Source: Peptococcaceae bacterium (GTDB taxonomy: Bacteria; Bacillota; UBA994). Taken from it: DNA of 32,972 nucleotides. A program made the position numbers and the translations under genes. Positions 2,018 through 13,186 of this stretch are shown in pieces. Numbering within the stretch: position 1 is the stretch's first letter; every line of letters starts with the position of its first letter. The stretch spans positions 1 through 32,972 of the forward strand of contig JAGXSS010000038.1 of NCBI GenBank assembly GCA_018334055.1. Direction: 5' to 3'. The notes under the pieces were generated by a model, which saw only the letters and a program-made list of their open reading frames with translations, did no database searches and was not told where the DNA came from.

Positions 2018-2950
2018 CTACATCACGAGGGCCATGATGGCCTTTTGCACATGGAGGCGATTTTCGGCTTCGTCCCAGACCACAGATTGCGGTCCGTCGA
2101 TAACTTCGTCAGTCACTTCTTCGTTGCGGTGCGCCGGCAAGCAGTGCAGGAAGAGGGCATCTGGCTTGGCTAGCTGCATGAGCTTGGCATTTACCTGGTA
2201 AGGCATGAGGTCCTTGACGCGCTTAGCATGCTCCGCCTCTTGTCCCATCGAAGCCCAGACATCGGTGTAGACGACATCTGCCCCGCGCACGCCTTCTTCT
2301 ACATCGCCCGTCACCACGACTTTAGCGCCCGTGAGCAAGGCATCTTCTTTGGCTAAACGCACGATATTGGCATCGGGCAAGTAGCCGGAGGGAGAGCAGA
2401 TAGTTACATCCAACCCCATCTTGGCACAGCCAAAGAGCAGCGAATGCGCCATATTGTTGCCATCGCCGATGTAGACGAGCTTCAGCCCTTGGAGGCGATT
2501 CTTCTTTTCCCAAATGGTAAAGAGGTCGGCCGCCACCTGGCAGGGATGCAAGAGGTCGGTCAAGCCGTTAATAATGGGGATGCTCCCGTACTTGGCGAGG
2601 TCGAGGACGTCTTGATGGGCATAGGTACGAATCATGATGCCATCGACGTAGCGCGAGAGTACGCGCGCCGTGTCGGCGATGGTCTCGCCCCTCTTCAACT
2701 GCAGGTCATTGGCCGACAAGAACAAGGCATAGCCCCCTAGTTGCCACATGCCCACTTCAAAAGAAATGCGCGTGCGGGTGGAAGCCTTTTGGAAAATCAT
2801 GCCCAGGGTCTTGCCTTTCAGCGGTTGAAATGGTTCGCCCATCTTTTGCTTGAGCTTCATCATCTCGGTGGTCTTAAAGACCTGCCACAGTTCCTCTTGG
2901 GTGAAGTCGTGGAGTGAAATAAAGTGTCTGCCTTTTAGTGTTACGCTCAT
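2018..2950 (-). CDS. argF: Ornithine carbamoyltransferase, probably catabolic
   Basis: Interconverts citrulline plus phosphate with L-ornithine plus carbamoyl phosphate. The 310-residue length is normal. The carbamoyl phosphate loop STRTR is at 57-61, HPCQ at 135-138, the ornithine-binding DVWASMG at 230-236, and the catalytic HCLPAHR at 269-275. AAGGAGG lies 7 nt before the ATG, and only 17 nt separate it from the carbamate kinase stop. The biosynthetic and catabolic forms (ArgF and ArcB) cannot be split by motif. The neighbourhood of carbamate kinase and ornithine-degrading genes, with no arginine biosynthesis genes, favours phosphorolysis of citrulline to supply ornithine and ATP. Confidence 0.96.
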   Translation of the reverse strand: MSVTLKGRHFISLHDFTQEELWQVFKTTEMMKLKQKMGEPFQPLKGKTLGMIFQKASTRTRISFEVGMWQLGGYALFLSANDLQLKRGETIADTARVLSRYVDGIMIRTYAHQDVLDLAKYGSIPIINGLTDLLHPCQVAADLFTIWEKKNRLQGLKLVYIGDGNNMAHSLLFGCAKMGLDVTICSPSGYLPDANIVRLAKEDALLTGAKVVVTGDVEEGVRGADVVYTDVWASMGQEAEHAKRVKDLMPYQVNAKLMQLAKPDALFLHCLPAHRNEEVTDEVIDGPQSVVWDEAENRLHVQKAIMALVM

Positions 2951-2967: not shown

Positions 2968-3909
2968 CTATTTATGTAGAATGGTCCCGGCCAAGCCCGC
3001 TACAGCTTGTCCGGCCATTGCTAGCGAGGTGATAATGCTCCGTCTGCCTCCGTCCTCGATGAAACGAATGGCGGCGAGCATCTTTGGCCCCATGCTGCCG
3101 GCGGCAAAATGCCCTTGACTCTGGTAGATTTTGGCTTCGTCGAGGGTGAGAGCTCCGAGATTTACTTGCTCGGGAGTGTTGAAGTTGATAGCCACCTGCG
3201 GTACATCGGTGAGAATCATCAGGGTATCGGCCCGGACATCACAGGCTAAGCGCTCGCCAGCTAAATCCTTGTCGATGACGGCCTCCACTCCTAGGTACTG
3301 ACCGCCCTTTTCAACCACCGGTATGCCACCGCCGCCACTGGTCACCACTATAGCGCCAGCCTGAAGCAAGCTCAGCACGGCCTCTTTTTCGATAAGACCT
3401 ATCGGGTCAGGCGAAGGAACAACTCTCCGCCAACCCCCTCTGGCTTTGTCTTCTTTCATGGACCAGTTTTTGTCTGTGCTAAAGCGCAGAGCTTCTACCT
3501 CACTATAAAACGCCCCGACAGGCTTAGTGGGGGAAGTGAAGGCAGGGTCATCGCCGTTCACGAGCACCTGCGTCACCAAACTCACCACCGGCCGCGCCAG
3601 CCCCCGCTCTCTTAAGATATTGGTCAGGGACTGCTGCACCATGTAGCCGATTTGGCCCTGCGTGGCCGCCCCACACATATCGAGTGGCATGGGCGGCACT
3701 TGCTCCTTGGCGATATCATTCTGCAGGAGGACGGCTCCCACCTGCGGGCCATTGCCATGCGTGACCACCACCTGGTGCCCCGCCTGCACCAAGTCCGCGA
3801 CCGCGAGACAGGCCGTGTGCACATTGGCGCGCTGTTCCTCCACGGTGCCCTTCTGTTTAGACTGCAAGATAGCGTTTCCACCAAAGGCGATGACAATTCT
3901 CTCTGACAT
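2968..3909 (-). CDS. arcC: Carbamate kinase
   Basis: Transfers phosphate from carbamoyl phosphate to ADP, giving ATP, CO2 and ammonia; this is the energy-yielding step after ornithine carbamoyltransferase. The amino acid kinase fold is shown by GGNAI (10-14), HGNGPQVG (51-58), the KPVGAFYS segment, SGGGGIPV and the VIDKDLA stretch. The start is the ATG at 3909: AGGAGG sits 6 nt upstream and the product is 313 residues, the usual family size. An upstream in-frame ATG at 4011 would add 34 unrelated residues, and the ATG at 3915 touches the Shine-Dalgarno directly. The gene lies between orr and argF behind a 172-nt leader, so it may have some control of its own. Confidence 0.96.
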   Translation of the reverse strand: MSERIVIAFGGNAILQSKQKGTVEEQRANVHTACLAVADLVQAGHQVVVTHGNGPQVGAVLLQNDIAKEQVPPMPLDMCGAATQGQIGYMVQQSLTNILRERGLARPVVSLVTQVLVNGDDPAFTSPTKPVGAFYSEVEALRFSTDKNWSMKEDKARGGWRRVVPSPDPIGLIEKEAVLSLLQAGAIVVTSGGGGIPVVEKGGQYLGVEAVIDKDLAGERLACDVRADTLMILTDVPQVAINFNTPEQVNLGALTLDEAKIYQSQGHFAAGSMGPKMLAAIRFIEDGGRRSIITSLAMAGQAVAGLAGTILHK

Positions 3910-4081
3910 AGACATCCTCCTACTCTCGTGGCCATTGATACAGCGGAGATGGACCGAACATAAATTCGACTTACTGCAGATGATGTCCTTCCCTGGCAAA
4001 GACATCCGCAATTTTCGTCATATTTTCCCGGGAAATAATATAGCACGAACTATGTCGTTTAACCGCACCGAACCAACCGCA
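3910..4081 (-). promoter_or_regulatory. Structured leader between orr and arcC with possible internal promoter and operator
   Basis: This spacer is unusually long for the operon. An extended -10 box TGC-TATATT reads on the minus strand at 4045-4037, with no clear -35. A perfect 12-bp palindrome TTTCCCGGGAAA (4024-4035) follows it immediately, where an operator at the transcript start would lie. Further on, GGATGTC (4007-4001) can pair with GACATC (3987-3982). The same GACATC could instead pair with the second GGATGTC copy at 3917-3911, which overlaps the arcC ribosome binding site. CAGATGATG at the orr stop (4088-4080) also pairs with CATCATCTG (3985-3977). A switch is possible but untested. 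Confidence 0.4.
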
Positions 4082-5140
4082 TCATCTGACATATACTTTT
4101 TTCACATAAGGCGAAGTCGCCGCCGCCAAGAGAGCTCCATAGCTCGGAATAAAGGAGATGTGGTCACCCACCGCCAAGGCCGACGCCTTAGTCACGTCCA
4201 GAATAAGGTGGTCACTGCTACCCCCTAGCACCTCACAACCCTCGAGGAGCGGAGTCAAGCCCTCGGGGACCGTGTCCTGCCGCCCGATATCCAGTATGGC
4301 GCGCATCTGTAAACCGCGATCGACAAAGGACGGTACATTACCAAAGGCGTCTTGGCTGATAGTGCCCAGCGGCACGGACGGCTTGGACTTGAGTTCGATG
4401 ATCTCGGCGGTAATGAGACAGGCGTCCAAGTGGGCGCCGGGGAGGGGAGCGCGGTTAATGGTCTCCCGCCCGAGAATAATCCCTTCGCCGATGCGCAAGT
4501 TGTTCACCCCACGACCCAGCTTCTTCTCAGCCAAGAGCGCCAGGCTACTCGAATTGCCGCCCGAAACCAGCATGGGCAGGCCGAGTGTCTGTTCTGCCTG
4601 CTTAGCAAGCCCAGAGAGGAGGTCTTGATTGCTTTCGTCTGGGATGACGCCGCCAAAGCAGGCTAAATTGGTCCCCACCCCGACTATTTTAAGCCCGGGC
4701 AGCAGCTTGACAGCCTCTAGCAAAAAGAGAAAATCGTCCGGCCACACCCCTTCGCGCAGGTCACCCACATCGACCATCAAGATTATTTGGTGCGTAGTCC
4801 CCATGGCGATGGCCGCACAGCTGAGCGCTTGGCAAGTGGCTAGCTCAGAATTAAGACTGATGTCCGCGAGCGCCACTACTTCGGCGGCGGCGCTCAAAGT
4901 GGGCACACGCAAAAGCACAAAGGGCCCCTCCACGCCGGCCTGCCGCAGGCGGGCAATGTTTTCGAGGCGCGAGTCGGCAATGCCCACTGCTCCCGCAGCC
5001 AAGAAGACCTCGGCCACCCGCGGAGCGCCGCAAAGCACTTTGGTCACCGCAAAAATGCTGACCCCCTGCTCCTTGGCCTGCCGACAGACTAGGGCGGCGT
5101 TGTGCTCTAGCCGCGTTAAATCAATAGTTAGGTACGGCAC
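4082..5140 (-). CDS. orr: Ornithine racemase (alanine racemase-like, PLP-dependent)
   Basis: Converts L-ornithine to D-ornithine, the substrate of the aminomutase encoded upstream. It is a fold-type III PLP enzyme: an N-terminal TIM barrel whose Schiff-base lysine is K34 in AVTKVL, a glycine/serine phosphate-binding loop SGGNSSSLAL, the family stretch NLRIGEGIILGRET, and a C-terminal beta domain. I place the start at GTG 5140, where GGAGGAG lies 7 nt upstream, giving 352 residues. A TTG at 5155 extends the frame by five codons but falls inside that Shine-Dalgarno. The start overlaps the end of the mutL-like gene by 20 nt, indicating translational coupling. Another amino-acid racemase is possible from sequence alone; the operon makes ornithine the clear choice. 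Confidence 0.9.
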   Translation of the reverse strand: MPYLTIDLTRLEHNAALVCRQAKEQGVSIFAVTKVLCGAPRVAEVFLAAGAVGIADSRLENIARLRQAGVEGPFVLLRVPTLSAAAEVVALADISLNSELATCQALSCAAIAMGTTHQIILMVDVGDLREGVWPDDFLFLLEAVKLLPGLKIVGVGTNLACFGGVIPDESNQDLLSGLAKQAEQTLGLPMLVSGGNSSSLALLAEKKLGRGVNNLRIGEGIILGRETINRAPLPGAHLDACLITAEIIELKSKPSVPLGTISQDAFGNVPSFVDRGLQMRAILDIGRQDTVPEGLTPLLEGCEVLGGSSDHLILDVTKASALAVGDHISFIPSYGALLAAATSPYVKKVYVR

Positions 5141-6506
5141 CGGTCTCTCCTCCAATATTTAGACTTTGCTCCATGAGCACTTCTGCCGCCCCCTTATACT
5201 CCTGACTGAGGACGCCGAGCACCGCTAAGTTGTAGTGGCGGTCAATAACCACGCGAAACTCCCGCGGGTACATGGTTTGCTTGGCGGATGGACGAAGCGC
5301 CAGACGCAGTAAATCGGCCGCCCCCGCCAGACGAGTCAAGGGGCCTCCTGTGCCGATGACCCACTTGACGGCGGTCAAGTCGCGGCCCATGGCGACGACA
5401 TACTTCCCACCCGGTCCATAGAGATGCTTGACACAGCCGGCATGGCGCTCGAGGGCTGTGCCGACGGCCTTGGCGGTCAGTAGCTCTAGGGCGCGCACTT
5501 CCTCGGGTGTCTTTGGGAACGCCCCCCAACTGGCGATTACCGCCCCGAGGTCCACCATACTTTGTTTGGCCTCATCGGGAGTGACTAACAGGGCCACCTG
5601 CTCGGCGTTGACATACACTCCCAAATCTCCCTCGACGGTGCGCTTGGCTAAGGGCTCCGGGCTGTAGGCGAGGCGACTTAGCTCCTCACTCCCCATGGTC
5701 ACCGAATGCACATCGGTAGTGGCACCGCCGACATCAACGACGAGCAAGTCCCCGATATGCCGATAGAGCAACTCGGCGGCCTGCATCACCGCGCCCGGGG
5801 TGGGCATGATGGTCCCTTGCACGAGGCTACGGATTTTCTCCATGCCGGGCGCATGGACGATGTGTTCCTCGAAAACCTGTTGTATGGCTCGCCGCGCCGG
5901 TAAAACGTTTAGCTCGTCAATGCGGGGGTAGACGTTTTCGACGGTCAAGACCCTTTTGCCGGCCCGCCGGAGGATGTGCGCCACCTCATCACGGCAGGCA
6001 GAATTTCCGGCATAGATAATCGGCGCGTCTAGCGGCAGCTTGGCCAGCAAGGCAGCATTCTGTAAGGCCGTCTTGGTCTCACCGTGGTCGACCCCGCCGG
6101 CTAAAAGAATAATGTTGGGCCTGATGTCTTCGAGCCTGGCGAGATGCTCGATTGTAAGCTCGCCGGCTGTGACCATCCTGACTATGGCCCCGGCGCCCAG
6201 AGCCGCCTCGCGCGCCGCCCGCGCCGTCATCTCGTAGGCCAAGCCGTGCACTGTCATGCGAAGGCCACCGGCGGCACTACTCACCGCGAGCATGCGCTGC
6301 CAGTGCAGCCTTCCACCGAGCTTGTTCTCTAGGTCGACGGTCGCTTCCCTGAGGCCAATAGTAACGTCTCCCGCCGGCACTGAAGTCGGGGCCATGCCCT
6401 GCCCGAGAAAAACAGGGTGTGGACTGGCCAGGTCGGCAAAAGCATTGACCACCGTGGTCGTGCTGCCTATTTCTGCCACGAGGACATCGGCAGCGAACTC
6501 CCTCAC
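5121..6506 (-). CDS. MutL-like ASKHA ATPase, probable reactivating factor of ornithine aminomutase
   Basis: 461 residues related to the glutamate mutase MutL family, an acetate-kinase/Hsp70/actin-fold ATPase group that accompanies AdoCbl-dependent mutases. The first phosphate loop is AEIGSTTTVV (11-20), the second DVGGATTD (258-265), and LLAGGVDHG lies at 134-142. It is not the DNA mismatch repair MutL. The start is GTG overlapping the oraE stop in GTGA, so it is translated with oraE. Position between the aminomutase and the ornithine racemase suggests it restores or chaperones the cobalamin enzyme. That role is inferred; the family assignment is firm. Confidence 0.88.
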   Translation of the reverse strand: MREFAADVLVAEIGSTTTVVNAFADLASPHPVFLGQGMAPTSVPAGDVTIGLREATVDLENKLGGRLHWQRMLAVSSAAGGLRMTVHGLAYEMTARAAREAALGAGAIVRMVTAGELTIEHLARLEDIRPNIILLAGGVDHGETKTALQNAALLAKLPLDAPIIYAGNSACRDEVAHILRRAGKRVLTVENVYPRIDELNVLPARRAIQQVFEEHIVHAPGMEKIRSLVQGTIMPTPGAVMQAAELLYRHIGDLLVVDVGGATTDVHSVTMGSEELSRLAYSPEPLAKRTVEGDLGVYVNAEQVALLVTPDEAKQSMVDLGAVIASWGAFPKTPEEVRALELLTAKAVGTALERHAGCVKHLYGPGGKYVVAMGRDLTAVKWVIGTGGPLTRLAGAADLLRLALRPSAKQTMYPREFRVVIDRHYNLAVLGVLSQEYKGAAEVLMEQSLNIGGETGAVPNY

Positions 6507-8701
6507 TTTAAGCCACGCTCGCGGCGCTTTTTGACTATAAAGCTGACCACATGAAGGCCCTTAGTGCCACGGCCAAAGCCCGCATCAAGCCCACATTCCA
6601 CCGCCATTTCATGGTTCACCTGCGTGCCGCCGCCCAGAAGCATGAGTTTATTGCGCACACCCTTCTCGACCGCCAGGTCATGGAGGCGGCGCATGTTGAT
6701 GCGGTGGATATCCGCATGAGTGATAATGGTCGAGACTAAGATGGCGCCGGCATCAAGCTCGATGGCGGCATCGACCACCTTGTCGATCGAAACGGATGTT
6801 CCTAGGTAGTGGCACTCGACGCCATAGCCCTCGATGCCGCCATGCTTGATGTCGATGATTTCTCGTAGCCCCACGGAGTGCTCATCATGCCCCACTGTCG
6901 CCGCCACCACTTTAAGCGGGCGGTCATGTATGTCTGCCCGCACCTCGTCGGCGCTGAGCACAACTTCTTCTTCGGGCAGGCTCAGCTCGCGCGGGTTAAT
7001 CGCCCTTGGCAACCTGCCCTTGACCTCAAGGTAGGTGCCTTCGGCCTGCTGCATGACCTGCTTGTGAATGACCTGCGGGTCCTCCAAGTTCATCTGCTTC
7101 GCCAACTCTAGGGCGCTGTAGTGCGCGAGCCTGGGCTCGGCCGGCAAGAACATCTGCACATTGACCACGCCATCTCCCGCCCATTCTACTTCGGGCTTGA
7201 TGAGGCCCTGCTCGCGCAGTGTGGCCGTCTCCGTCAGGCGACGATTGGCATTGTCCCAATCATCCAGTTCATCGATATAGGCGACTTTTTCACTCACGCA
7301 CATGCTGCAGCCGGCGGTAGGCTCGCAGGCATGGCTGTATTCCGCCGGCACATTGTTGTAGCCAAAATGCACACACACGGGGGCGAAGTAGTCCGCATCC
7401 CGCGCCACGATGCTGTCGGCCGCTATGCCGCGGTCACTCTTTCTGACTATGCCATCGCCGTTGCGCTCGGGGTAGTAACCGCTGTCCACAAAGAAACCGG
7501 CCTCCACCGCCTTAAAGTAGCCACCCACCGCGAGCATTTCTTCCATGAACAAGATGGCCCTTTCCTTGAGCTCGCGCACCCTAGTCCCCAGCACCCCGTC
7601 ACGCTTAATTTCCACCATGTCCTGCAGGCCGTCCAGAGCGAGCAAGGCCTGCTTGGCGGTGTTGACCGCGCTGATATTGTTGTAATGCCAGGGCACATTG
7701 CGCCCTTCGTCGGGGGTAATCGTACTCTGGATGTCCACCGAAGTGAGGCGTGAAATGAGCAAGTTCAAAGTATGGGTGACCGTGGCCTCCCGCGTGTCGG
7801 ACTCGATGTACTTGGTGTTCATCTGGGCCCGCATGCGGTACCCCTTGAACAATTCGCGCAGCGCCACCGCATAGGGCAGGTCAAACTGGAAGGAGGGCAC
7901 GGGCGCGGCGCAAGGCGGCACCGTAGAAAGGCATATATTGCTCGGGTCCATGCCGACCAGACGAGAATAAGAGCTATTTAAGGCGTGCTGCACCAAGAGC
8001 TCGGGCATGACCTTCCAGCCTTCGCGCGCCGTGGCATTGGCATTGTGGGCGCCGTCAATTTGCGCCATGCCCGCGCTGGCCATAAGTTTCTTGGCTACCG
8101 CCGCATCCACAAAACTGCGATACATATTGACATTGCGGTAGAGCACATTGTACTGCGGGTCCTGATGCGCCCCGTTGACGCCTTCTTCCACAAAGAGCAC
8201 CGCAATCTCCGGGCCGGCGACGCCTGAAACATAGGAATGCAGGTTGATGGGCCTTCCCACCTCGTCTTCGATGAGGTCAAGGGCCTTCCGCGTGGCTCTG
8301 ATTTGCTTGCGCGTGATGGGCACGCCACCCACACCCTCGGGAGTGCCTTCAATCAGCCCATCATAGTGGCTCTGCCCCGCAGTGCGAATGACCATGATAT
8401 GGTCCGCACCATGCCAAGCCGCCATACGCATGCGCCTGATATCGTCTTCAAAGCGACCCGAGGCGATTTCGGTGGTGATGACGCAGTCCGGCTGGGGGTC
8501 AATGCCGCCAAAGTGTTTGGCGGCCGGCAAAGGGATGCTCTGCGTTAAATTCTCCGAAGTCTGTTTGTAAGTAAGCGAGTGCATTTGTTGGTCGGGCACG
8601 AGCTTCCGCCAAGTCCAGCCCTTGCGGCGCGGGCGGTAGTTCTCTAGGTTTTCTAAAATGGCGGGGACATTTATCTTGCTGTTCTTCTCAAGCCTGTCCA
8701 T
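6503..8701 (-). CDS. oraE: D-ornithine 4,5-aminomutase, large (E) subunit
   Basis: Moves the terminal amino group of D-ornithine to give 2,4-diaminopentanoate, using adenosylcobalamin and PLP. The bulk (about 1-580) is the TIM-barrel part. The C-terminal Rossmann domain carries the cobalamin motif DEHSVG, with the axial histidine at H610 in numbering from the outer ATG at 8707. The lysine of DIKHGG follows 11 residues later (K621), the same spacing as H618 and the PLP-binding K629 described for the Clostridium sticklandii enzyme. Two starts are possible: ATG 8707, only 3 nt past GAGGGGG, or ATG 8701, 9 nt past it and overlapping the oraS stop in TGATG. I prefer 8701 (732 residues). Confidence 0.95.
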   Translation of the reverse strand: MDRLEKNSKINVPAILENLENYRPRRKGWTWRKLVPDQQMHSLTYKQTSENLTQSIPLPAAKHFGGIDPQPDCVITTEIASGRFEDDIRRMRMAAWHGADHIMVIRTAGQSHYDGLIEGTPEGVGGVPITRKQIRATRKALDLIEDEVGRPINLHSYVSGVAGPEIAVLFVEEGVNGAHQDPQYNVLYRNVNMYRSFVDAAVAKKLMASAGMAQIDGAHNANATAREGWKVMPELLVQHALNSSYSRLVGMDPSNICLSTVPPCAAPVPSFQFDLPYAVALRELFKGYRMRAQMNTKYIESDTREATVTHTLNLLISRLTSVDIQSTITPDEGRNVPWHYNNISAVNTAKQALLALDGLQDMVEIKRDGVLGTRVRELKERAILFMEEMLAVGGYFKAVEAGFFVDSGYYPERNGDGIVRKSDRGIAADSIVARDADYFAPVCVHFGYNNVPAEYSHACEPTAGCSMCVSEKVAYIDELDDWDNANRRLTETATLREQGLIKPEVEWAGDGVVNVQMFLPAEPRLAHYSALELAKQMNLEDPQVIHKQVMQQAEGTYLEVKGRLPRAINPRELSLPEEEVVLSADEVRADIHDRPLKVVAATVGHDEHSVGLREIIDIKHGGIEGYGVECHYLGTSVSIDKVVDAAIELDAGAILVSTIITHADIHRINMRRLHDLAVEKGVRNKLMLLGGGTQVNHEMAVECGLDAGFGRGTKGLHVVSFIVKKRRERGLK

Positions 8702-9066
8702 CAGCATACGCCCCCTCTAAAGTGCTCTACCATTTGCTCGCCACCGGCAGCGGTCAGTATTTTCTCGCCGGCCTCGTTGACCGAACATTGGTGGAGCTTG
8801 GCCATGGTGACCACCACCTGCCCCGCTCCCTTGCCCAGTAGACCAAGCTCATGAATGCGCTTAACGATGGCCCCTGCTTCCACCGAGGCAAAGCCCATGC
8901 GCAGTAGCACCGACCGCTCGATGGACGGGGAGGTATGCTTGGCGGCTAGATCAACCAAGGGCTGCATTATTTTATCGGAAAGTTCCCAAAAACGCTTTTC
9001 CAGTTCGGCCTCACTCAACTCGGCGAGGTGTTTACGACGCGTGGCAAAATCATCAGCTCGTTGCAT
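8701..9066 (-). CDS. oraS: D-ornithine 4,5-aminomutase, small (S) subunit
   Basis: Small partner of OraE in the alpha2beta2 aminomutase. The product begins MQRADDFATRRKHLAELS and contains the conserved SIERSVLLRMGF and GLLGKGAGQVV stretches seen in the family. The frame is open for 41 more codons upstream, but those read through pyrimidine-rich spacer and have no family character. AAGGAGG lies 6 nt before ATG 9066, giving 121 residues, the length known for OraS. The ATG at 9069 is only 3 nt from the Shine-Dalgarno. The 3' end overlaps oraE. The 5' side borders a GxxExxY gene cassette rather than ortB directly. Confidence 0.94.
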   Translation of the reverse strand: MQRADDFATRRKHLAELSEAELEKRFWELSDKIMQPLVDLAAKHTSPSIERSVLLRMGFASVEAGAIVKRIHELGLLGKGAGQVVVTMAKLHQCSVNEAGEKILTAAGGEQMVEHFRGGVC

Positions 9067-9092
9067 CATTGGCCTCCTTAGTATTATGAATT

Positions 9093-9112
9093 GGGGGGAA
9101 GGGGGAAGGGGG
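9093..9112 (+). repeat. G-tract repeat (GGGGGG/GGGGG/GGGGG separated by AA)
   Basis: On the plus strand three long G runs are separated by AA. In the operon mRNA this is a C-rich run about 15 nt upstream of the oraS Shine-Dalgarno. It forms the outer part of the inverted repeat around the GxxExxY gene and can pair with the G-rich run at the ortB end. Confidence 0.8.
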
Positions 9113-9120
9113 AGTGTTTG

Positions 9121-9130
9121 CTCGAAGTGG
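9121..9130 (+). repeat. Left arm of the inverted repeat flanking the GxxExxY gene
   Basis: CTCGAAGTGG here is matched by CCACTTCGAG at 9545-9554. The arms enclose the whole GxxExxY reading frame. Purine-rich sequence continues outward on the corresponding strand at both sides, so the imperfect repeat is longer than its 10-bp core. Confidence 0.75.
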
Positions 9131-9170
9131 TGCGCAGCGAGGAAAAGTGGGACGAAGGGGAGGGAAGGAA

Positions 9171-9548
9171 TTAATGTATAAGCCGTTTCCATTCTAATTT
9201 TCCGCTGCTGCCAAAGTTTATGAGTAGGGCTACTCGTAGCCCTGTGGCCTTCAGGTAGTTACGCACTTGAGCATGCTCATGGCCACAGAGGCGCGCGACT
9301 GACTTGATTTCGACAATTATGCTGTTGTAGCATACGAGGTCGGCTACATACTTCTTACTCAAGAGCCTTTTTTTGTACCTAACTTCGAGTAAACTCTGGA
9401 CGACAAAGGGGATGTTTCGCTCCGTTAACTCTATCTCCATGGCTTCTTGGTAGATAGCCTCCAAAAAACCAAAGCCTAACTCCGAATGAACGGCAATCGC
9501 CGCCCCTACGATAGCGAAAACTTCATCCTTAAAAAAGGATTCGCCCAC
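9171..9548 (-). CDS. GxxExxY protein
   Basis: 125 residues of the GxxExxY family, whose function is unknown. The naming motif is GFLEAIY (G27, E30, Y33). Family features around it are AIAVHSELGFGFLEA, QEAMEIEL and NIPF. Later D70 (VADLVC) and E80-x-K82 (VEIKS) have the spacing of a PD-(D/E)XK-like nuclease fold, which is an inference. The start is GTG 9548; the only upstream purines are distant and no good Shine-Dalgarno is visible, so expression may be weak. The gene lies between ortB and oraS, which are expected to be adjacent in ornithine operons. It is flanked by inverted repeats and simple purine repeats, so recent insertion is likely. There is no obvious tie to ornithine metabolism. Confidence 0.88.
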   Translation of the reverse strand: MGESFFKDEVFAIVGAAIAVHSELGFGFLEAIYQEAMEIELTERNIPFVVQSLLEVRYKKRLLSKKYVADLVCYNSIIVEIKSVARLCGHEHAQVRNYLKATGLRVALLINFGSSGKLEWKRLIH

Positions 9549-9554: not shown

Positions 9555-9593
9555 CCCGTGTCCCTCTCCCTCTACTCCCTCTCCCTTTGTCCC
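9555..9593 (-). repeat. GGGAGAGGGA-type repeats forming a G-quadruplex motif over the ortB stop codon
   Basis: On the mRNA-sense strand six GGG runs follow each other with spacers of 5, 3, 6, 3 and 4 nt. Any four satisfy the usual quadruplex pattern. The ortB stop (9574-9572) lies inside, so the last ortB codons (GQRERE) are written in this repeat. Confidence 0.75.
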
Positions 9594-10972
9594 TCCAGCA
9601 CTTCTTCCGGCGTTAATCTGCTGTCCTCACACAAAAACTCCACTTCCCTTGGCGTCAGGGGCTGCCCTTTTTTTTGCTCAAAAGCATTGCGCAGGTAGGA
9701 TTGTCGCAGACCCTCGAGCGGCACTTCCTTATATCGCAACTGGCGCGGGTTACTTGGTATAACGATTGTCTTCCCCGGCACATTCTCCACGGGGTCGCCA
9801 GCCCTAACGACAATGCCCTGCTCGCGCGCAAAGGCAAGCTGGGCGTTCGGGTGCTTGCCCGCCCCGGTATACTCGGTTTCCTGCACGACAATGATTTGGT
9901 CTTGGTCCATCTCTTGCGCCAGGGCGAAGGCGGCCGCCAAGGAGATATTGCCGGCCGGACCGCGCTCTAGCCCTTCCAGTTGGGCCAGCATTTCGGTGGC
10001 ATAGAACACTTCGCCCTGTGTCACTGTGCCAAAGCGGTCTAGGTAGCGCAGCGACCTAGCGGCATTGCGCGGCACATCGGCCCGATCGGGCCACGTGGTA
10101 AAAGGCACCGCAAAGCCGGTATGACCGGTGGTGAAAGACTTGCGGTTAAAGTCATGGTCGCTGGCCATATGGAGACCCGAGAGGTCAACCGAGGCACCGA
10201 TAACTAAAGTGGCCAGGGCCCCGGCTTTCTTCATGCCCCGCGCCGTGCCCGTAACATTACCCCCCCCGGCATGGGTGATGACCACCGCATCGGGGTCGCG
10301 CCCAGTTTGTTGGCGGACGCCTTCCACCACCTCTAGGCCTAGGGTCTCGATGCCGGCGATACCATAGGGGGTGTAGAGCGAGGCGTTAAAGTACCCGGTG
10401 CTCTCGAGCACCTGCAAGAATACGGCAAACAGCTCCGGCCCCACCGTTAGCTGCAGGACCTCGGCCCCATAGGCCTCACAGGCGCGGCCCTTCTCGAGTA
10501 TTTCCGGCTGACCCTGGTTTTTGCTGTCATAGACCTCCTGCACGATGATGGCCTTCAGGCCACGCATGGCAGCCTGCGAGGCCACCGCCGCCCCGTAGTT
10601 GCCGGAGGTGGCCGCCACCACACCGGCAAAACCATGCTGCTGCGCATGGTAGACCGATATTGCCGCGCGGCGCGCCTTGAAACTGCCGCTGGGATTGGCG
10701 GCCTCGTCCTTGATAAATATGCGTGCGCCCTTGCCCCCTCCGGCCAGTTTTCTGGCCAGACGAGTAATATTTCTTAACTCCAACAGGGGGGTTGCTCCTA
10801 CCCCTGTTTCCAGCTGAATGCGGCGAATGTCGTCTAGGGTGTAGCCCGTGTTGTTCATCATGCCCTCGTAGTCGAAGGCCAGGCCTCCCTGTTCATACCG
10901 GGCATAGTCGAAGCCAAGGGCCTTGGCCGTGATTTCGCCCTTTCTAGCGATGATATCTGTATAACTCGGCAC
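9572..10972 (-). CDS. ortB: 2-amino-4-oxopentanoate thiolase, beta subunit (PLP-dependent)
   Basis: With OrtA it splits 2-amino-4-oxopentanoate with CoA to acetyl-CoA and alanine, the carbon-cleaving step of ornithine fermentation. OrtB is a fold-type II PLP protein resembling threonine synthase. The Schiff-base lysine is K99 in NPSGSFKARRA, SGNYGAAVASQAA is the substrate/asparagine loop, and HAGGGNVTGTA is the phosphate-binding glycine loop. The product is 466 residues. The start is GTG, whose G is also the last base of the ortA stop (TAGTG), implying coupled translation. The final residues EGQRERE lie in a purine repeat tied to the downstream GxxExxY cassette, so the native C-terminus may have been altered. 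Confidence 0.94.
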   Translation of the reverse strand: MPSYTDIIARKGEITAKALGFDYARYEQGGLAFDYEGMMNNTGYTLDDIRRIQLETGVGATPLLELRNITRLARKLAGGGKGARIFIKDEAANPSGSFKARRAAISVYHAQQHGFAGVVAATSGNYGAAVASQAAMRGLKAIIVQEVYDSKNQGQPEILEKGRACEAYGAEVLQLTVGPELFAVFLQVLESTGYFNASLYTPYGIAGIETLGLEVVEGVRQQTGRDPDAVVITHAGGGNVTGTARGMKKAGALATLVIGASVDLSGLHMASDHDFNRKSFTTGHTGFAVPFTTWPDRADVPRNAARSLRYLDRFGTVTQGEVFYATEMLAQLEGLERGPAGNISLAAAFALAQEMDQDQIIVVQETEYTGAGKHPNAQLAFAREQGIVVRAGDPVENVPGKTIVIPSNPRQLRYKEVPLEGLRQSYLRNAFEQKKGQPLTPREVEFLCEDSRLTPEEVLEGQRERE

Positions 10973-11262
10973 TAACTCAGCTCCTCCCGTAGCATGGGAC
11001 CGATAATTAATAGCTCGGGCTGCGGCCGGCCGAAACTATGGGTGTGGCAGGGAGCCACATCGATAAGCGTGCCGGTCAAGAGGCGACCCGCAAAAGTCCG
11101 CACGGCAAGTTCGGCCCCCAGCGGAACGCTGCTTTGGGCAAAACCTTTGACTCTGGCGATTACCGGCACCGCCTTACTGCTCTCCGGCAGGTGGGCGGCC
11201 CGCTCGGTAGCGCCAAGAGCGACCCACGATATCTCGACTAAGTGGCCCACCTCGCTTTTCAT
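10972..11262 (-). CDS. ortA: 2-amino-4-oxopentanoate thiolase, alpha subunit
   Basis: A small 96-residue partner of OrtB, required with it for CoA-dependent cleavage of 2-amino-4-oxopentanoate. The sequence is mostly beta-rich (VGHLVEISWVAL..., LAVRTFAGRLLTGTLIDV) and ends in HSFGRPQPELLIIGPML, typical of the family. No catalytic residue can be assigned from sequence alone. Its ATG overlaps the ord stop as ATGA and its stop shares a base with the ortB GTG, so ord, ortA and ortB form a tightly coupled trio. Identification rests on length, family character and position between ord and ortB. Confidence 0.9.
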   Translation of the reverse strand: MKSEVGHLVEISWVALGATERAAHLPESSKAVPVIARVKGFAQSSVPLGAELAVRTFAGRLLTGTLIDVAPCHTHSFGRPQPELLIIGPMLREELS

Positions 11263-12305
11263 TGGCTACAGCCGGCGACCAACTGGCTGATATCGCCCAT
11301 CAAGGCGCGGGGGATGGGGAGCTCGGCCATGGTGCAGAGCCCCGGAGCGGCATTGATGACCGCAGGTATCATGTTGACCGCCATGGCGATGGTCCCAATA
11401 CCTCCGGGGATTTCGGGCTTGATGGCCATGTTGATATTAGGCGTTCCGGTGATGTAGATATAGTCTCCGGTTTCAATCTGCTCTACTTCGGGGCGCACTT
11501 GTTGCGGATGCTCCAAGGTGATGACGAGCTTGTCCCCGTGATAGGCATAGGCGATGTGCTTACACCCGGCGACCATGCCCGGCTGCACCTTGATATGGGG
11601 GGTTTCGCGGTAGGTATTAGAGATAATGGCCTCTTTTACTTCCTCAATGCGGTCAATTTTAAGCCCCAGGGCCGAGGCGATGAGGCCGATGGATTCGGGG
11701 AAACCCACATGGCCGACAATGTTCCCCGAGCTGATGCCGGCGTTAAAGTCTTCTACCGTGGTACCAACCCCCTGGGTACGCATGACCGTGGGCCCAAAGG
11801 GCGAGAGGTCGTTGATGCGCACGGCCTTGATGCTTTCGATATGGGTGCAGACGCCGCTCAAGGCAATAATGAGGGCATCGAGGACAAAACCGGGATTGAT
11901 GCCGGTGCCGAGGAGGGATACTCCCGCTTGTTTAAAGGCCGCATCTAATTTAGCCGCCAGCTGTGGCTCCTGCGCCTCTGGATAAGCCATTTCTTCCGCA
12001 ATGGTGATGCAGTTCATTTTTGCCGCCGCCACCAGCTCCAGCTGGGGTAAAACCTCACGCGTAAACGAACCTGTACACACTAGGACAATCTCTGCTGCGC
12101 CTGCTACTATGGTCGCTTCAGGCCCAGCCTGCACTTCTAAATTCGGTGCGCTAACCCCGAGCACTGCCGAGAGCGTCTTACCCACTCGTGTGTCATGGTG
12201 GTCGATGGCGCCGACAATCTCAACGCCCTCCTTTTGCAGCAATAGCCTGGCCATCCCTCCACCCATGGCGCCTAAACCCCAGAGAATAACCCTAACTTTT
12301 TTCAT
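11259..12305 (-). CDS. ord: 2,4-diaminopentanoate dehydrogenase
   Basis: Oxidatively deaminates (2R,4S)-2,4-diaminopentanoate to 2-amino-4-oxopentanoate with NAD(P)+. It has 348 residues. An N-terminal Rossmann domain begins at once with VRVILWGLGAMGGG (dinucleotide loop at 10-17), and D36 in GAIDHHD ends strand 2. The middle has the dihydrodipicolinate-reductase-like GTGINPGFVLDALI segment. It is the first gene of the operon. AAGGAGG lies about 10 nt before the ATG, and a sigma-54 promoter lies about 55 nt upstream. The next gene overlaps by 4 nt. Confidence 0.94.
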   Translation of the reverse strand: MKKVRVILWGLGAMGGGMARLLLQKEGVEIVGAIDHHDTRVGKTLSAVLGVSAPNLEVQAGPEATIVAGAAEIVLVCTGSFTREVLPQLELVAAAKMNCITIAEEMAYPEAQEPQLAAKLDAAFKQAGVSLLGTGINPGFVLDALIIALSGVCTHIESIKAVRINDLSPFGPTVMRTQGVGTTVEDFNAGISSGNIVGHVGFPESIGLIASALGLKIDRIEEVKEAIISNTYRETPHIKVQPGMVAGCKHIAYAYHGDKLVITLEHPQQVRPEVEQIETGDYIYITGTPNINMAIKPEIPGGIGTIAMAVNMIPAVINAAPGLCTMAELPIPRALMGDISQLVAGCSQ

Positions 12306-12359
12306 CCTGTTCGCTCCTCCTTATGCGTAGCCCATTGCTTCGCCTTCTATAGTGTAATC

Positions 12360-12375
12360 TGCAATTATCATGCCA
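12360..12375 (-). promoter_or_regulatory. Sigma-54 (-24/-12) promoter of the ornithine operon
   Basis: The minus strand reads TGGCATGATAATTGCA. GG (12374-12373) and GC (12362-12361) are separated by exactly 10 nt, and both elements match the known TGGCACG-N4-TTGCA consensus except one base. The expected transcript start is near 12350, leaving a leader of about 45 nt before ord. Such promoters need an enhancer-binding activator, which is not in this window. Confidence 0.8.
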
Positions 12376-12398
12376 GTTATGGGTGATTTTCAATTCAG

Positions 12399-12441
12399 TA
12401 TGCTCATTTTTTTGAAAGTATGCGCGTCTATGCTTTTATGC
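12399..12441 (-). promoter_or_regulatory. Cluster of four GCATA repeats upstream of the sigma-54 promoter
   Basis: GCATA on the minus strand (TATGC on plus) starts at plus positions 12399, 12419, 12429 and 12437, so the first three are 20 and 10 nt apart, about whole helical turns. The cluster lies about 50-90 nt upstream of the predicted transcript start, where an activator could bind. Function is inferred from position and repetition. Confidence 0.4.
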
Positions 12442-12450
12442 AACCAAATA

Positions 12451-12468
12451 GTGCCGATATTTCGGCAC
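12451..12468. promoter_or_regulatory. Palindrome GTGCCGA-TATT-TCGGCAC: activator site or cwlD terminator
   Basis: Perfect 7-bp arms around a 4-nt centre lie about 110 nt upstream of the predicted sigma-54 start and 28 nt past the cwlD stop. No T-run follows in the cwlD direction (TATTTGG), which weakens the terminator reading. The distance suits an upstream activating sequence. A second short inverted repeat, GCCC/GGGC, lies at 12474-12487. Confidence 0.5.
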
Positions 12469-12496
12469 AAGTCGCCCGTATTTGGGCAGAGCCCAG

Positions 12497-13186
12497 TCAG
12501 CGCTGCCAGTAGCGAAGGATGCCCGCGAAGATGGCCCAGGCCAATTGCCGACGATATTCCTCGCTCGCCAACAGGCTCGCCTCTCTGGGATTAGAAATAA
12601 AGCCAACTTCCACGAGGACCGCAGGGCAATTACTCTGGCGCAACATATAAAAATCACCCCGGGCCACCTGTCGATTAGTATTCTTTAGATATTCGCGCAG
12701 GGCTTCTTGGAGATTTTGGGCCAATTTTTGGCCTTCATCAGACCCCTCCGCGAAAAAAGCCTGCGCCCCTGACCAACGAGCCGAGACCATACTGTTGACA
12801 TGGATCGAAACCAGAATTTCGGCCTTACTTTCATTGACAATCCGGACCCGGCGCTCTAGGTCTTGGCGCTTGCGCCGCGAATACTGCCTGCCTAAGGCGC
12901 TGTCGCTGAGGTCTGTGTCGGTTTCGCGGGTCATCACGACACTTGCCCCGGCTGCTTGGAGCAAAGTGCGCAGACGCAAAGCCACATCAAGCACGATGTC
13001 TTTTTCTAATAGCCCATCAGGGCCGAGCGCGCCCGGGTCCACCCCGCCGTGGCCCGGGTCGACGGCGATCACCCTGCCCGCTAGGGAAGCGCTAAAGATT
13101 ACGACATTGCTGTTTTGGCGCACCAAGATTAACGGCCCAAAAAGGACCGCCAAAGAGAGGAACAGCCACACCGACCACCTTGCCAT
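12497..13186 (-). CDS. cwlD: N-acetylmuramoyl-L-alanine amidase CwlD
   Basis: A zinc amidase of the Amidase_3 family; CwlD removes the peptide from muramic acid during formation of muramic-delta-lactam in spore cortex. The 229-residue product has an N-terminal membrane anchor or signal segment (about 6-22). Zinc ligands are H46 (DPGHGG), E61 and H129 (SIHVNS), and the catalytic glutamate is E193 (LVEVGF). GGAGGT lies 6 nt before the ATG. It sits just after rplM-rpsI, the place cwlD has in many spore formers, and this supports the name. A strong terminator separates it from rpsI, so it needs its own promoter. TTGTCA...GATATT in the 122-nt gap (about 13235-13207) is a weak candidate. Confidence 0.92.
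   Translation of the reverse strand: MARWSVWLFLSLAVLFGPLILVRQNSNVVIFSASLAGRVIAVDPGHGGVDPGALGPDGLLEKDIVLDVALRLRTLLQAAGASVVMTRETDTDLSDSALGRQYSRRKRQDLERRVRIVNESKAEILVSIHVNSMVSARWSGAQAFFAEGSDEGQKLAQNLQEALREYLKNTNRQVARGDFYMLRQSNCPAVLVEVGFISNPREASLLASEEYRRQLAWAIFAGILRYWQR

Follow-up and report, generated by a model that had tools for sequence, protein, structure and literature searches.

The ornithine-fermentation operon headed by ord in this Peptococcaceae genome is probably driven, through a tandem pair of palindromes, by the activator of the lysine-fermentation operon, OrdR having been lost. This reading draws on the window, the whole stretch of 32,972 nucleotides that was analysed, and on its own and related genomes, from which a -24/-12 promoter, rpoN, an operator shared between ord and the activator gene, the clade of the activator and the lack of a detectable OrdR were computed. 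A wider reading, which we favour with less assurance, is that in two Bacillota families the ornithine operon would have passed from OrdR to the lysine activator, the half-site changing from GCAAA to GCC with no change in tandem geometry or promoter, and that one genus would then have lost sigma-54; there the same activator would have become a DNA-binding regulator that works without sigma-54, its AAA+ domain dead but its pairing with the operators intact.

The operon runs in the order ord, 96-aa ORF, ortB, GxxExxY gene, oraS, oraE, GlmL-like factor, orr-like gene, arcC and ornithine carbamoyltransferase gene (Table 1). The GxxExxY gene is also found in G001 and is absent from the ord region of G002 and G004.

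Table 1. Features of the ornithine operon and its upstream region, with the candidate activators encoded on other contigs of the genome
Feature	Position	Strand	Basis or remark
-24/-12 (sigma-54) promoter TGGCATGATAATTGCA of ord operon, predicted	12360..12375	-	exact GG-N10-GC; conservation at ord; rpoN in genome
Shine-Dalgarno GGAGGAG of ord	12314..12320	-	sequence
ord, 2,4-diaminopentanoate dehydrogenase	11259..12305	-	NF040740, 515 bits
96-aa ORF in ortA position (2-amino-4-oxopentanoate thiolase small subunit)	10972..11262	-	position only
ortB	9572..10972	-	NF040741
GxxExxY-family gene, ortB/oraS interval	9171..9548	-	
oraS	8701..9192	-	conserved part from ~residue 38-43 of ORF
oraE	6503..8707	-	NF040743, 1329 bits
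GlmL-related ornithine degradation protein	5121..6506	-	NF040744
orr-like ornithine racemase	4082..5155	-	388 bits, under curated cut-off of 480
arcC, carbamate kinase	2968..4011	-	
ornithine carbamoyltransferase	2018..2950	-	
GCATA block, conserved, four copies	12399..12441	-	
Predicted operator of the activator (upstream activating sequence), a tandem of two 14-bp GCC-N8-GGC palindromes	12453..12487	-	top match of activator-leader matrices
Operator half 1 (distal), GCCCAAATACGGGC	12474..12487	-	
Operator half 2 (proximal), GCCGAAATATCGGC	12453..12466	-	may double as weak amidase-gene terminator
N-acetylmuramoyl-L-alanine amidase, gene upstream of ord	12497..13186	-	context
GAF-PAS activator	contig C37		near corrinoid protein
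CBS-PAS activator	contig C68		near CoA transferase; non-canonical GTFPGA loop
PAS activator (PAS-AAA+-Fis), GSFTGA	contig C73		between agmatinase gene and kdd-kamA-kamB-kamC-kamD-kamE

The sequence TGGCATGATAATTGCA, 70 bp 5' of the ord ATG (12305), has at 12360-12375(-) the GG-N10-GC taken here as the criterion for a sigma-54 promoter (consensus TGGCA-N6-TTGCW), and predicts a transcription start of ord at ~12349-12350. The exact GG-N10-GC promoter that the earlier note had claimed for the operon was confirmed at this position, and it recurs at ord in relatives. In the window it is the sole exact match to TGGCAYRNNNNTTGCW, and four matches were found when one mismatch was allowed, against 1.5 expected; a promoter match alone is weak, and conviction comes from conservation.

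Usable sequence upstream of ord was available from 20 genomes, the window's own included; in 14 of them, all of which possess rpoN, a -24/-12 element precedes ord, and the distance from the site to the ord start is at most 165 bp in 13 of these 14, the site in G014 lying at -327. The other six comprise four genomes without rpoN (the three ord-bearing members of genus g2, and G039) and two rpoN-positive genomes, G062 and G080, in which no -24/-12 element was recognisable at ord. Counted by rpoN status, the element is present in 14 of 16 positive and none of four negative genomes (Fisher p = 0.003), but the events are not independent, as one genus accounts for three of the four negatives. The window's genome (G000) has one copy of rpoN, and the refutation foreseen in the earlier note, a genome lacking this gene, does not apply. 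Judged by sequence conservation, the predicted -24/-12 promoter at ord is real. Sigma-54 control of ord is not new, having already been published, with OrdR as activator, for C. difficile and other Clostridiales. In C. difficile a -24/-12 start of ord has been mapped and OrdR named, and SigL had no effect on ord under the conditions used (Soutourina et al. 2020, PMC7438776), while OrdR control of ord has been predicted in five species (Nie et al. 2019, PMC6615313).

Upstream of the promoter lies the predicted operator, with the layout GCCCAAATACGGGC-N7-GCCGAAATATCGGC at 12453-12487, its two palindromes starting 21 bp apart and covering ~ -104 to -138 from the expected transcription start. The palindrome that the earlier note placed at about -110, GTGCCGA-AATA-TCGGCAC, is present at 12451-12468 and contains the proximal half, but the note had overlooked the second 14-bp palindrome, with which it forms a tandem pair as the downstream member. 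Across the window's family ord is preceded by 14-bp GCC-N8-GGC palindromes exactly 21 bp apart, three genomes having AGC in place of GCC in the distal one; in f3, the sister family, it is the second palindrome that is degenerate (GAC...GGC). Leaders of lysine-type activator genes contain this tandem element too, its members 20 or 21 bp apart, in nine genomes, five of the window's family, three of the sister family, plus G058 (G000, G002, G004, G005, G006, G009, G011, G013 and G058). Shuffling of these leaders gave nothing as good in 300 trials for eight of the nine, and 7/300 in G009. Single GCC-N8-GGC sites also stand ahead of related activator genes in G069 and G019. A matrix built from the leaders only gives the ord site the highest score of the window (27.9; runner-up 14.6), and one trained on leaders outside the window's family again puts 12453-12487 first (26.8 vs 13.1). 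Pattern searches of genomes, on which all genome-wide statements about motifs are based, found error-free tandem pairs in G000 only at ord (spacing 21) and in the activator leader (C73:48341-48374, spacing 20). Because the same tandem motif stands at the activator gene and leader matrices find the ord site, the activator site is, on sequence grounds, better assigned to the palindrome pair than to the GCATA repeats that lie nearer the promoter.

In OrdR-bearing Clostridia, ord is preceded by two 14-bp GCAAA-N4-TTTGC palindromes exactly 22 bp apart (L045, L046, L049, L051 and L052), a motif derived in this analysis from Clostridia. The two operator types split cleanly by activator type: all ten ord regions of the window's family and f3 score 18.5-31 with the lysine-type motif and at most 12.7 with the OrdR-type motif, whereas six Clostridia-type ord regions adjoining OrdR score at most 16.4 with the former and 35-40 with the latter, whose matrix was built from five of these same six loci. 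The ord region of G000 itself, at 6.0 vs 35-40 in the six loci, does not carry the OrdR-type tandem. In some Clostridia (L045, L048 and L049) the tandem OrdR-type operator is also a long inverted repeat with T-runs behind it, and may double as an ordR terminator.

The proposal that an enhancer-binding protein is encoded outside the window is supported, with activator genes present on other contigs. G000 encodes just three native activators in which the sigma-54 interaction domain is complete. The one on C73 has the features looked for in a lysine-linked activator, namely a place beside the kdd/kam operon (its neighbours being kdd and kamA-kamE products by NCBIfam), a GAFTGA-type loop, Walker A and B motifs and a Fis-type helix. 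Its nearest relatives by sequence are Clostridia activators adjoining ord. The tree unites 13 ord-linked activators in a single group (support 92/94) and places the C73 activator outside it, with the lysine-linked ones, on a side that has weaker support (69/88) and whose f3 members are near, not adjacent to, kdd. Six genomes (G019, G023, G050, G058, G065 and G069) hold an ord-linked activator together with at least one further paralog, which is kdd-linked in three (G023, G058 and G069). No activator of the ord-linked clade (OrdR) was detected in the window's genome, a 96%-complete MAG of 109 contigs, and OrdR seems, from the sequences, to be absent both from the window's family and from f3, the relatives being mostly MAGs and such absences provisional. 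A truncated activator fragment on contig C45 (L004) was set aside as a probable MAG contaminant on a high-GC contig. Members of the CBS-PAS family (L002, L083, L084 and L086) have GTFPGA, GSFLGA or GAFFGA in place of GAFTGA; they occur in the rpoN-bearing G000, G001 and G004 and in the rpoN-less G007, and may act without sigma-54.

Both the C73 activator gene and kdd have -24/-12 promoters nearby. The element TGGCACAATTCTTGCA lies directly upstream of kdd (L003 1012-1027; G000 C73:46868-46883), and sites of this type are also found at kdd in G001, G002, G004, G011, G013, G058, G023 and G069, so that lysine fermentation looks, from these promoter sequences, to be sigma-54 controlled across these Bacillota. 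No clear tandem operator was found near the kdd promoter in the window's family, and control of kdd would therefore need the leader site ~1.5 kb off or a degenerate site. In G058 a single GCCTATTTTTGGGC lies upstream of kdd.

Genus g2, a sister genus, offers a natural case of sigma-54 loss. The rpoN gene was undetected in all four of its genomes (G003, G005, G006 and G007; 90-96% complete), and in G005 no -24/-12 element was found at kdd. By alignment, the activators of G005 and G006 (L091 and L092) have ASFPSA in place of GSFTGA, and LDAL or LEQI in place of the Walker B LDEI, with the acidic pair lost, and they keep the PAS domain, Walker A (GKK) and the recognition helix RIPRQTLQYKLR. In addition, palindrome pairs remain in this genus at ord and at the activator gene. 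The apparent outcome, read from these substitutions, is conversion of the g2 activator from an enhancer-binding protein to a sigma-54-independent regulator.

Other explanations of the upstream region turn on what the palindromes and the GCATA repeats are. It is unlikely that the palindromes serve solely for intrinsic termination of the amidase gene upstream, with the ord activator binding elsewhere. The segment 12451-12468 does form a stem of 7 pairs with a loop of 4, followed by TATTTGG, the fold z-score for 12441-12500 is -3.8, the inner stem bases covary between genera, as in a terminator, and the T-run, weak behind the good stem in G000, is stronger in G004, G005 and G006. Nevertheless, the conserved unit is a pair with a fixed 21-bp phase, not a single hairpin, the same tandem motif is found at the head of the activator gene, a place in which a terminator would serve no purpose, matrices built solely from activator leaders recover the ord site, and f3 has a separate hairpin-like repeat downstream. 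A plain terminator had been the initial reading, from stem covariation, and was dropped after the tandem copies were found at the activator gene; the proximal palindrome may serve as both operator and terminator, a double role that fits either reading. The four GCATA copies that the earlier note described upstream of the promoter were located as it stated, at 12399, 12419, 12429 and 12437 (-), with spacings of 20, 10 and 8 bp, although GCATA as such is no commoner across the window than chance predicts (51 copies vs 58 expected). The 0/10/30 triple occurs there with 0 mismatches, and its spacing recurs in two further lineages, G002 and G004 (the last copy being GCAAA in G002), so that it is conserved in three rpoN-positive lineages; elsewhere in the four genomes searched, the arrangement was matched only with at least two mismatches. 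It is none the less highly improbable that these repeats are the activator site, as the earlier note had supposed. The comparison of relatives that it recommended did reveal conservation, but the block (TTGCATAGAAGYATAAAA), lying between operator and promoter, is conserved across three genera that include the rpoN-less g2, and because it persists there it is probably no sigma-54 enhancer. Moreover, the repeats are unlike the motif at the activator gene and were not found there or at kdd, and it is the palindrome pair that goes with the activator. Fis-type activators usually bind inverted repeats, and the GCATA copies are direct repeats. As an ARG box, a sporulation promoter or a housekeeping promoter the block gave no good fit by eye; G004 alone has a fair TTTACA-N16-TATACT.

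Other factors might also act at ord in place of sigma-54 or of the lysine-linked protein. Transcription by the housekeeping sigma factor from a TTGAAA-N18-GATAAT that overlaps the -24/-12 element, or the action of both factors, is very unlikely. This sequence matches at 10/12 positions, its second hexamer ends at 12364, and GATAAT is common to G000, G001, G002 and G004; however, one housekeeping-type match per 400 bases is at chance level (0.5 expected), the -24/-12 sites of other families lack GATAAT yet keep GG-N10-GC, and genomes without rpoN are also without the -24/-12 element. That the activator on ord is instead the GAF-PAS protein (C37), the CBS-PAS protein (C68) or an unassembled OrdR seems quite unlikely, even though both of these genes are in G000 and the genome is a MAG in 109 contigs. 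In G002, of the same genus, the same ord promoter and operator are retained in a genome that has neither GAF-PAS nor CBS-PAS protein and whose only strong activator-domain match is the lysine-linked PAS protein; the CBS-PAS loops depart from GAFTGA, and the ord operator is not of the OrdR type.

In the mechanism that we prefer, two dimers of a PAS-AAA+-Fis-type enhancer-binding protein would occupy the palindromes at 12453-12487, which are spaced by two helical turns, and the bound activator would loop the DNA to the sigma-54 promoter. This activator would be the lysine-operon protein of C73, encoded between the agmatinase gene and kdd-kamABCDE, and not OrdR, and lysine and ornithine fermentation would share one activator in this lineage. 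Binding, activation and a sensed ligand are what we infer from this arrangement, together with a loss of OrdR rather than its never having been gained. That the activator senses ornithine, as the earlier note envisaged, is only one possibility, the best candidate being tied to lysine fermentation; lysine, ornithine and a shared product are all candidate ligands. If the scheme is correct, it would be a case in which the replacement of a transcription factor by a paralog can be traced at an operon that is itself conserved, relatives alive today still showing operators of both types, and the natural loss of sigma-54 would reveal which portions of an enhancer-binding protein are retained and which degenerate. 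A further suggestion is that a single sensor may coordinate the fermentation of lysine and ornithine.

Among known systems, PrdR, the proline reductase activator, is comparable in that sigma-54 controls a Stickland amino-acid pathway, but it has a different target and a site of the TGT-N10-12-ACA type (PMC6615313). KamR of Bacillus thuringiensis, which acts on the lysine 2,3-aminomutase locus, resembles the C73 protein in being a PAS-type sigma-54 activator whose gene adjoins a lysine-degradation operon containing kamA and points the same way, although it has been reported for kamA and not for ornithine genes (PMC4428206). The OrdR regulon of Clostridiales (PMC6615313, PMC7438776) shares with the present system the operon type, the -24/-12 promoter, the PAS-AAA+-Fis activator family and an upstream tandem of 14-bp palindromes set roughly two helical turns apart. 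It differs in that here there is no ord-linked activator gene and the activator belongs to the lysine-linked group, and in the half-site (GCC here, GCAAA there) and spacing (21 here vs 22 bp). The statement that the ord site matches nothing known is right only in part, as its geometry copies that of the OrdR sites found here in Clostridia, with an altered half-site.
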